Assembly: GCF_029891575.1 (NCBI RefSeq)
Contig: NZ_JARZHF010000008.1
Span: forward strand, 62,001-126,000
DNA length: 64,000 nt
Direction of reading: 5' to 3'
Source of the DNA: Salipaludibacillus daqingensis
Lineage (GTDB): Bacteria > Bacillota > Bacilli > Bacillales > Salisediminibacteriaceae
Part shown: positions 8,394 to 9,985 of the stretch, one piece after another
Numbering within the stretch: position 1 is the stretch's first letter
How the letters are laid out: each line of letters starts with the position of its first letter
The notes under the pieces: model-generated
What the model was told of the DNA's origin: nothing
Databases searched by the model: none
What the model saw: the letters and a program-made list of their open reading frames with translations, nothing else
Program-made: the position numbers and the translations under genes

Positions 8394-8435
8394 AAAAATT
8401 ATACTCATTTATACCAAATAACGCCTATACCAATT

Positions 8436-8477
8436 AAAAACACCTTCAAAACTGATGTCAGTTCTGAAGGTGTTTTT
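8436..8477. terminator. Bidirectional terminator between queF and yidC2
   Basis: AAAAACACCTTCA-AACTGA and TCAGTT-TGAAGGTGTTTTTTT form a near-perfect stem with a two-base loop, flanked by A- and T-runs. It can end transcription of both convergent units. Confidence 0.9.
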
Positions 8478-8484
8478 TTAATTT

Positions 8485-9306
8485 TTAATCGGTATCTACA
8501 GCTGTTTTCAAAGCTGGTTGCTTTTCTCGGTACATCCACTTAAAAAGAAGCGTTTGGAAAATAAGAAACACCCCTCCGATTGTCCAGTAAAGCGGTAACG
8601 CTGCTGCGACGCTAAAAGAGAACACCCCCATGATAACTGGCGTAATGTATCCTAGCATCGCCATTTGCTTTTGCTGCGCAGAATCCATTCCCATTTGCGA
8701 GACTCTGAACTGAATGAAATAAACTCCAGCAGCAACAAAAGGCAGAATCATGTCGGAGACGCCTAAGTTAAACCACAGAAAATTGTGCTGAGCAATTTCC
8801 GGTGTTCGCATAATCGCGTAGTAAAAGCCAATTAAAATTGGAAACTGGATAAGCATCGGCAGACAACCCATCGACGTAATCGGATTAAAGTTGTGCTTTT
8901 GATACAATTCCATCATTTCTTTTTGCATGTTTTGCTTATCTTCTGTTGACTTTTTATCTTTAAATTTTTCTTTTAATTCATTCATTTCTGGTTGAATAAC
9001 CGCCATTTTCTCTCGAGTAAATTGTTGCGTTTTATATTGTTTCATCATCAGTGGCATAAGCGCTGATCGAAGCAATAACGTCATAAAAATGATCGACAGA
9101 CCATAGTTTCCACTGAAAATACCCGCTAAAAATTTTATTGCAAACGAAAACGGGTATATAACAAAGTGATTAAACACTCCTGCTGTCTCCGAATCGATTG
9201 GTTCCATACTTGCTTGGCATCCACTGACCGTTAAGATCAACAATGCCCCGATTAACATTAACGTGCTATATTTTGAAAGTTTGGTGAATACAGACTTTTT
9301 TTCCAC
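8485..9306 (-). CDS. yidC2: Membrane protein insertase YidC2 (YqjG/OxaA2 type), lipoprotein
   Basis: YidC/Oxa1 insertase that places Sec-dependent and independent proteins in the cytoplasmic membrane. A lipoprotein signal peptide ends in the lipobox TVSGC near residue 30. The Oxa1-type domain of five transmembrane helices follows, with TSMGCLPMLIQFPILIGFYY and a cytoplasmic basic loop rich in Lys. It starts at a GTG (9306), six bases after AGGAGG. That ribosome binding site is base-paired in a hairpin lying inside the overlapping upstream ORF. The layout is that of B. subtilis mifM-yidC2, so this is likely the inducible paralogue of a housekeeping SpoIIIJ elsewhere. Confidence 0.94.
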   Translation of the reverse strand: MEKKSVFTKLSKYSTLMLIGALLILTVSGCQASMEPIDSETAGVFNHFVIYPFSFAIKFLAGIFSGNYGLSIIFMTLLLRSALMPLMMKQYKTQQFTREKMAVIQPEMNELKEKFKDKKSTEDKQNMQKEMMELYQKHNFNPITSMGCLPMLIQFPILIGFYYAIMRTPEIAQHNFLWFNLGVSDMILPFVAAGVYFIQFRVSQMGMDSAQQKQMAMLGYITPVIMGVFSFSVAAALPLYWTIGGVFLIFQTLLFKWMYREKQPALKTAVDTD

Positions 9307-9614
9307 ATGAATCCTCCTCGAAGTTTTGTTATTACTGAATTCGAGAAGGATAAATTGTCGGAATCATCCTCAGGTCCTTCCTTTCGTTTCATGATACGTG
9401 TAATCCATGCATGCCGATCGATATGATGATCTAGCTGCATGCTCTCAGGAACATTTAAGTTTCTCCAAGAATGAAGTTGCTTTTGTGTCATCGAGCGATT
9501 GGCCGCTGACGATTCGTGTGCCATGTATTGAATCAAATGGGCTCCGGCAAACGTCATATATAAGCTGACGGTTAGAAGAACAGGAATCAAATCCTGGGAA
9601 AATTCAAACATCAT
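9258..9614 (-). CDS. MifM-like regulatory leader peptide overlapping yidC2
   Basis: This 118-codon ORF starts behind a perfect AAGGAGGTGA six bases upstream of ATG 9614, so it is surely translated. One N-terminal transmembrane segment (about residues 8-31) is followed by a polar, basic region, then WITRIMKRK and an acidic cluster PEDDSD (81-86). In B. subtilis, MifM is a membrane-inserted arrest peptide that stalls at an acidic C-terminal stretch and thereby opens a hairpin hiding the yidC2 ribosome binding site. Here the ORF runs through the hairpin and ends 49 bases inside yidC2 in another frame. Sequence similarity to MifM is slight (the W-I then acidic arrangement), so the call rests on architecture. 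Arrest itself is inferred. Confidence 0.72.
   Translation of the reverse strand: MMFEFSQDLIPVLLTVSLYMTFAGAHLIQYMAHESSAANRSMTQKQLHSWRNLNVPESMQLDHHIDRHAWITRIMKRKEGPEDDSDNLSFSNSVITKLRGGFMWKKSLYSPNFQNIAR
9313..9349 (-). promoter_or_regulatory. Hairpin that sequesters the yidC2 ribosome binding site
   Basis: On the transcript CCTTCTCGAA (from 9349) pairs with TTCGAGGAGG (to 9313): ten continuous pairs, one of them T-G, with a 17-base loop. The 3' arm contains the AGGAGG of yidC2. The 5' arm lies in codons for Ser89-Asn92 of the overlapping leader ORF, just downstream of its acidic cluster. A ribosome stalled there would cover this arm and free the binding site. Confidence 0.75.
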
Positions 9615-9791
9615 CTGTATTCACCTCCTTCATAAGTAAAGTTAAAAAAAGTAAAATTTCTATTAAGTAAGATTATTATCGTTGAAATAGATGCAAAAGT
9701 CAAAGGCTAATCCGTGACAGTTCTTTAGCCGTTATTAACAATTCTTTTCTTTTACGATTATTGCAAATTTTATTCCTAAAGGTCGAGACTT

Positions 9792-9973
9792 GCTCTCTCT
9801 TGTGACCGTCTTCCATCAAAATCAGCTCAACACGGTCACTAGACGCTCTCTCTTGTGACCGTCTTTTACCAAAATCAGCTCGCTTCGGGCACAAGACGCT
9901 CTCTCTTGTGACCGTCTTCCACCGAAATCAACTCGCTACGGTCACAAGATGCTCTCTCTTGTGACCGTCTTCC
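9792..9973. repeat. Tandem hairpin repeat array, 53-bp period (three full copies and one partial)
   Basis: Copies begin at 9792, 9845, 9898 and 9951, each starting GCTCTCTCTTGTGACCGTC. Within each full copy a left arm TCTTGTGACCGT is repeated in inverted form as ACGGTCACAAGA about 22 bases later, with some arm mismatches (for example CACTAGA in copy one, GGGCACAAGA in copy two). The same unit occurs in eight copies at 27039-27462. The longest minus-strand frame through it looks spurious. Confidence 0.92.
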
Positions 9974-9985
9974 ATAAAATATGCA

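Follow-up and report, generated by a model that had tools for sequence, protein, structure and literature searches.

The question raised by this locus of Salipaludibacillus daqingensis is why a small open reading frame (ORF), lying directly upstream of a secondary yidC gene and pointing in the same direction, should run on past the start of that gene. The locus lies in the window (the whole stretch of 64,000 nucleotides (nt) analysed, from contig NZ_JARZHF010000008.1), whose numbering is used below; all the features of the switch are on the minus strand. The ORF (118 residues, 9258..9614) is a MifM-type leader, as judged from the ORF list, its relatives, coding selection and hhalign, and the gene is yidC2 (8485..9306), for a YidC/Oxa1 insertase. 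The Shine-Dalgarno sequence (SD) of yidC2 is paired with late leader codons, and the start site of the leader is itself paired, over a long range, with the first codons of yidC2. The reading favoured here, with a probability of roughly 0.6, is an arrest leader of the MifM family in which two RNA locks are nested.

The leader runs from an ATG at 9614 to a stop codon at 9260-9258. A first-pass annotation of this DNA had described its length, single membrane segment, acidic region and overlap with the yidC2 start, all of which are present. It also called the leader strongly translated, and the part of this that stands is the strong SD AAGGAGGTG in front of the ATG. The membrane segment (residues 10-28, 9531..9587) is the highest 19-residue Kyte-Doolittle window, with a mean of 1.69, and from its charge would be oriented N-out. 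By inspection the acidic patch PEDDSD occupies residues 81-86, so that D86 is 58 residues from the membrane segment as placed by Kyte-Doolittle only. The candidate arrest motif, W70-ITRIMKRKEGPEDDS-D86 (9357..9407), includes the conserved KRKE[AG]PEDD, and the common core of the leaders in the same alignment (A1) is WITRxxKRKE[AG]PEDD.

Selection on the peptide was followed by the ratio of nonsynonymous to synonymous change (pN/pS) among seven Salipaludibacillus leaders, using 18 of the 21 pairs and excluding three that are near-identical. The ratio is 0.30 over residues 1-66, lowest at 0.20 over residues 67-87, and 1.43 over residues 88-99, while the synonymous term pS falls from about 0.80 earlier in the leader to 0.32 over residues 88-99. 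Because pN/pS is low up to residue 87 and then high with fewer synonymous changes, the constraint on the peptide ends at the acidic patch and a constraint on the RNA follows. The clear conclusion is that the leader is a real, selected protein as far as the acidic patch, and that its later codons matter as RNA.

General databases say little about such a protein. Pfam and NCBIfam assigned no family to the leader, 18 of its relatives gave just seven single, weak and chance-like Pfam matches (E at least 0.022), phmmer found no match in PDB, and Rfam none at the leader. Profile comparison was more informative. By hhalign the leader family matches the MifM of the B. subtilis group directly (E 4.6e-5, probability 68.6), and it matches the short leaders of other genera that end in a gap before yidC (E 1.1e-15), which in turn match the B. 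subtilis-group MifM (E 1.9e-7). By these comparisons the leader is a MifM homologue, both directly and via intermediate leaders. The spacing between the conserved W and the final acidic residue is 16 both in the window and in MifM (W73-D89); the MifM positions were taken from passages of PMC4423224 and PMC7897499, and the motif was checked against PDB 3j9w_AZ.

Leader matches were found in 26 of 35 genomes of the family (E <= 0.01), 91 of 397 of the order (E <= 0.1, weak ones included) and 38 of 398 of the class (E <= 0.001), and the four best named ones are Salipaludibacillus species. A yidC gene is present in 157 of 169 sequences (168 loci and the window), and the matches that lack one are weak (E 5e-5 or worse). 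No leader match at E <= 0.01 was found in the eight searched genomes of one genus of the same family (g5: G011, G017, G020, G024, G027, G029, G031 and G033), two of which are just 80% complete; as most of the family has a match, this points to loss or strong divergence of the leader there. According to passages of PMC10987492, MifM relatives comprise 572 proteins in 592 Firmicutes genomes, with a median of about 54 residues from the membrane segment to the arrest site, and were selected for an acidic patch between residues 70 and 100, a range that includes residues 81-86 of this leader. The first-pass annotation had suggested a divergent, undescribed arrest peptide. The peptide sequence does differ, but since it belongs to a family already mapped in Firmicutes, "undescribed" is too strong; at most, the leader adds a new member to it.

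A search of relatives for the same geometry upstream of yidC showed that there are two layouts. The 157 sequences with yidC reduce to 114 distinct leaders (identical last 60 residues being merged; the window is L001), and to 111 when L002 (SpoIIIJ), L057 (which lacks a start) and L152 (which lacks a yidC start) are dropped. Seventy-nine of these were scored as passing the yidC start, by 26 to 140 nt (including L075, miscalled through a wrong yidC start but kept in the 79 and in the overlap clusters), and 32 as ending 16-38 nt before it. The overlap lies in one frame relative to yidC in 66 of the 79 and in the other in 13. Leaders of the B. subtilis group (10 loci) end 25-33 nt before yidC2. 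The window leader does not end before the yidC2 SD as in that layout; it ends 49 nt past the yidC2 start (overlap 9258..9306). The overlap remarked on in the first-pass annotation is thus genuine, and it is common to many genera, mostly together with the long-range helix described below. It is worth adding that the yidC2 frame is in pieces in L014, L038 and L086 (the same pattern; L086 is a metagenome-assembled genome named Bacillus sp.) and in L095 (Bacillus sp. JCM 19034), from a frameshift or sequencing error.

The first lock follows a known principle. A ten-pair stem over the yidC2 SD, with its 5' arm just after PEDDSD, had been proposed, and it is found in both the minimum free energy (MFE) and the centroid structures of the 403-nt leader RNA. 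Its 5' arm CCTTCTCGAA (9340..9349), an anti-SD in leader codons 89-92, pairs with the yidC2 SD TTCGAGGAGG (9313..9322) by nine Watson-Crick pairs and one G-U. The leader RNA as a whole folds at -110.5 kcal/mol (z -3.70), with none of 100 shuffles equally stable. In 75 aligned relatives the stem is kept, with 79.9% of cells paired against 74.1% for shuffled columns (0/500 as high) and 48-70% for slid partners. One further YidC match is present in the genome (G000:C8:247304-248017, 45% identical). The MifM-type logic of the locus is well supported by the position of the leader, its membrane segment and acidic patch, the SD stem, the second YidC and the profile homology.

The second lock goes beyond what the first-pass annotation saw. 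The SD, spacer and start codon of the leader (9613-9632) are complementary to yidC2 codons 4-11 (9274-9295). The inner part of this helix pairs GGTGAATACAGAT (9613..9625; the 3' half of the leader SD, the spacer and bases 1-2 of the start codon) with GTCTGTATTCACC (9283..9295; yidC2 codons 4-8), and the outer part, seen in MFE and centroid, pairs TGAAGG (9627..9632; the 5' half of the leader SD) with CTTTCA (9274..9279; yidC2 codons 10-11). The two parts are joined across an internal loop, the whole duplex having an energy of -26.1 kcal/mol, and the entire 3' arm lies within the overlap of leader tail and yidC2. In overlap-type loci the complement of the leader start extends, by its medians, from about +11 to about +24 of yidC2.

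This helix is strongly associated with the overlap layout. In 66/79 overlap loci and 1/32 gap loci the helix of the locus itself scores above at least 198 of its 200 dinucleotide shuffles, and a partition-function fold of the whole unconstrained leader gives more than six expected long-range pairs in 74/79 and 5/32 respectively. When YidC proteins are clustered at 80% identity, the helix is present in 31 of 40 overlap clusters and one of 22 gap-only clusters. A strong helix (score at least 21, a cut-off of our own choice) is present in 70 loci, where its uninterrupted length is 9 to 22 positions, G-U included. A scan in which the yidC2 start was free to pair with any stretch between 100 nt upstream of the leader and 20 nt upstream of yidC2 placed the best complement on the leader start in 73/79 overlap and 5/32 gap loci; from the window sizes, we estimate chance placement there at near 7%. 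The same scan was applied to 24 overlap and four gap loci fetched from the class-wide search after the hypothesis was formed (seven loci from genomes already used were left out, and L192, identical over 60 residues, was dropped), and the helix fell on the leader start in 21/24 and 0/4. Gap-type leaders as a rule have neither overlap nor helix, the exceptions being L025 and perhaps the genus of L213-L217 (g140, mostly gap-type), where in some loci the leader start region matches early yidC over a short stretch (TGGAGCA : TGCTCCA), which may be a reduced form of the helix or a separate one.

The long-range helix covaries across Salipaludibacillus, Evansella, Gracilibacillus, Paenibacillus and others. 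The arm sequence varies between genera with pairing kept, for example ATGCAGATGTTT (L016), GGTGAATCGATGATG (L026), GTGAATATAGATG (L088) and GGTGAGTGCAT (L123), and GAATACATTGTTCG in the Paenibacillus locus L097, where the start is TTG. In the 75-row alignment 84.7% of cells are paired, compared with 77.8% when shuffled (0/500 as high) and 38-45% when slid, and there are 45 two-sided cells against 13.4. On a YidC tree of 73 loci (L014 and L095 being too short) we infer 14 two-sided pair changes and 32 one-sided events that keep the pair. A cross matrix of 16 variant loci gave a mean of 31.0 on the diagonal and 18.3 off it, the own leader arm being the best fit for 13 of 16 yidC arms and the own yidC arm for 11 of 16 leader arms. 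As to the rows used, alignment A3 excludes L068, L075, L124, L143 and L145 and adds L025, and A4 uses 24 of 29 listed gap-type leaders, from a list without L025, L135 and L142.

Taken together, these features suggest how the switch may work. In lock 1, a leader whose membrane segment is not inserted would arrest its ribosome at about D86, where it would cover codons 89-92 and free yidC2; insertion would pull on the nascent chain and end the arrest. In lock 2, pairing of the leader start with yidC2 codons 4-11 would make each start site close the other. As the stop codon of the leader is found past the 3' arm in 69 of the 70 strong-helix loci, a leader ribosome that does not arrest would translate through the arm covering its own start and would have to open it. 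The leader start would then be reopened by any ribosome crossing the beginning of yidC2, either one translating yidC2 or a leader ribosome escaped from arrest. During arrest the leader start could close again, limiting the pile-up behind the arrested ribosome, and an un-arrested leader ribosome would hand on to the next, so that the sensor is metered. We therefore propose, with somewhat less than even confidence, a reciprocal start-site lock: the leader and yidC2 coding sequences would each hold the other's start closed, and the frame would be extended so that only an escaped or yidC2-translating ribosome re-arms the sensor, the switch metering its own loading and avoiding collisions.

Folding models are in part consistent with this proposal. 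They are static, and during transcription the leader start would be free before yidC2 is made. A simulated footprint of the arrested ribosome, with the P-site set 3-5 codons beyond the final acidic residue, raised the mean accessibility of the yidC2 SD from 0.17 to 0.41-0.46 in 69 overlap loci with the helix; L142 was left out of this simulation. The accessibility of the leader start is 0.12 in overlap-type and 0.31 in gap-type loci. Away from the leader start itself, the only single-ribosome placement that raised leader-start accessibility was near yidC2 +15 (mean 0.36; window 0.52). While yidC2 is on, its own ribosomes would hold lock 2 open.

A number of observations weigh against the reading with two locks. 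In the peptide, the MifM residues R69, I70, M80 and N81 are not kept; out of the arrest-critical R69, I70, W73, I74, M80 and N81 the leader retains W-I alone, and M80 and N81 align with R and K. For the short-range stem the covariation is mixed, with 4 pairs showing two-sided change against 3.9 in shuffles and 12 further pair types against 12.6, and one slid partner has 43 two-sided cells where the real stem has 34. For the long-range helix, the YidC tree also implies 98 events in which an unpaired state is gained or lost, and other mismatches make up 130 cells, in part through misalignment, as the alignment misplaces some arms. In the cross matrix a foreign yidC arm fits better for five of 16 leader arms (L001, which is the window, L016, L088, L123 and L132), and a foreign leader arm for three of 16 yidC arms (L132, L069 and L101). 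The best helix falls off the leader start in L018, L073, L124, L128, L143 and L145 among the 79, and in L188, L193 and L210 among the 24 later loci; in L188 and L193 the leader and yidC starts are probably misassigned. Fifteen of the 21 later matches come from one genus (g163, with a helix of 18-21 positions and new sequence), within which loci are not independent, and the other six from four genus codes; L186 and L218, with scores of 21-22, are weak, and the register of L186 differs. L025 keeps the helix although its leader stops earlier, so the overlap is not strictly needed. In the models, SD accessibility in gap-type leaders rises similarly with the footprint (0.28-0.41), to an average of 0.39-0.41 in 30 loci, and when the arrested ribosome is the sole one placed, the leader start stays closed and the yidC2 SD opens only in part (window 0.12-0.32).

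The long-range helix might also act mainly on yidC2. It would then block the yidC2 start, high output would need both an arrested ribosome and a second one queued at the leader start, and only long arrests would count. The position of the 3' arm, at the edge of the 30S footprint, is compatible with this, as is the modelled effect of a ribosome at the leader start, which opens the yidC2 start region from 0.35 to 0.49-0.51 on average. However, masking by the helix is more complete at the leader SD and start codon, on the side of the 5' arm, as the comparison with gap-type loci indicates, and in the window a ribosome at the leader start gives no further opening of the yidC2 start region (0.72 to 0.61). 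We regard this explanation as unlikely. It is less likely again that the duplex is a cleavage or stability element, such as an RNase III target that sets the lifetime of the mRNA. A long duplex does close the leader, with the uninterrupted lengths given above, but decay would need neither the siting of the 5' arm over the SD, spacer and start codon of the leader, as in 73 of 79 overlap loci, nor a leader stop beyond the 3' arm, as in 69 of 70.

Three further explanations were tested and then set aside. The leader could be a plain MifM homologue whose complementarity is a by-product of a conserved SD facing a conserved YidC N-terminus; the GGTGA portion of the arm is an ordinary SD, and the N-terminus MExxSVF recurs in many overlap loci. 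This is already disfavoured and seems very improbable, given that the arms change together in sequence (GAATCGATGATG, GAATACATTGTTCG, GAATCCCTTGTTTG, GAGTGCAT), that the helix is found in one of the 32 gap-type leaders, many of which have the same kind of SD, and that in the B. subtilis group (10 loci) the strongest pairings score 20.0 (L173 and L174), a value reached by 12 and 8 of 200 shuffles respectively. The complementary arms also make an inverted repeat in the DNA, for example operator half-sites that loop it, and this has a slighter chance still: the arms vary between genera, their position is tied to start codons, and G-U outnumbers A-C by 69 to 13 in the tree-analysis cells (720 being Watson-Crick), or by 35 to 13 without the outermost pair, which favours a helix that acts as RNA rather than DNA. 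Fusion of leader and YidC2 by -1 frameshifting on a run of seven A at the yidC2 start is almost certainly wrong, for although the frame is identical in 66 of 79 overlaps and the run is kept in the window (GGAAAAAAAG) and in L005, it is broken in other relatives (ATGGAAAACAAATC, ATGCAAACGAAC) and 13 of the 79 overlaps use the other frame.

The yidC2 gene starts with GTG at 9306, behind GAGGAGG, and its product, which by inspection has a lipoprotein-type signal, matches PF02096 (150.7 bits, cut-off 35) and TIGR03592 (178.5, cut-off 84.3). At 9304-9308 the sequence is AUGUG, where the GUG start shares bases with an AUG in the leader frame, so that initiation in two frames could occur; initiation at AUGUG and GUGUG is the subject of an existing paper (PMC9841429). 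Upstream of the leader lies a promoter-like site, TTGACT-17-GATAAT (9675..9703), for which the evidence is weak since six such sites were found in the region and 4.3 are expected by chance. Further upstream, at 9792-9974, there is a 53-bp tandem repeat (3.5 copies, 87% matches), the unit of which has inverted TTGTGACCG and CGGTCACAA stretches. Between yidC2 and the convergent neighbour gene, a hairpin with a T-run (8427-8495) is by inspection likely to be a two-way terminator; sub-threshold, chance-like Rfam matches at 8427-8561 lie over it.

Start sites closed by a distant stretch of RNA and cleared by translating ribosomes are known from the replicase of RNA phages and from E. coli rpmI-rplT. 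The present locus differs in that the leader's own start is closed by the downstream target gene, beside an arrest switch. Compared with MifM-yidC2 of B. subtilis, the alike features are an ORF upstream of yidC2, one N-terminal membrane segment, W-I followed by an acidic patch, and a stem masking the yidC2 SD, which in MifM is opened by the arrested ribosome (passages of PMC6037786 and PMC4423224). The cores differ, being WITRxxKRKE[AG]PEDD here and RIxxWIxxxxxMNxxxxDEED in B. subtilis MifM, as do the place of the leader stop and the long-range helix, since the 10 B. subtilis-group loci have no strong one. CliM, found upstream of yidC in Clostridia, is also a YidC-monitoring leader; it has a membrane segment, and a stem covers the yidC start. 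The available passages of its description (PMC13183943) do not mention a lock on the leader start. No description of a helix between leader start and yidC2, or of the overlap, in MifM relatives was found by searching the full text of open PMC papers, a scope that leaves out supplementary files and the founding MifM paper, so an earlier notice is possible; the word "overlap" is absent from the main text of PMC10987492 and PMC7897499. The second element, the lock on the leader start, is thus apparently undescribed.

Papers on arrest peptides, in the passages available, are mainly concerned with the nascent chain and with the stem that lies at the target gene. In passages of PMC10897456, collided ribosomes are produced in vitro with MifM mRNA, and in B. 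subtilis such collisions are split by MutS2, so the loading of new ribosomes behind an arrested one matters too. If our proposal is true, this ribosome-loading problem would find a natural answer in a conserved helix that shuts the start of the leader itself and a reading frame laid out to open it again. The helix at the leader start is found in at least two orders of Bacilli, and the pairing of leader start with target start gives a sequence rule by which more such switches may be found.
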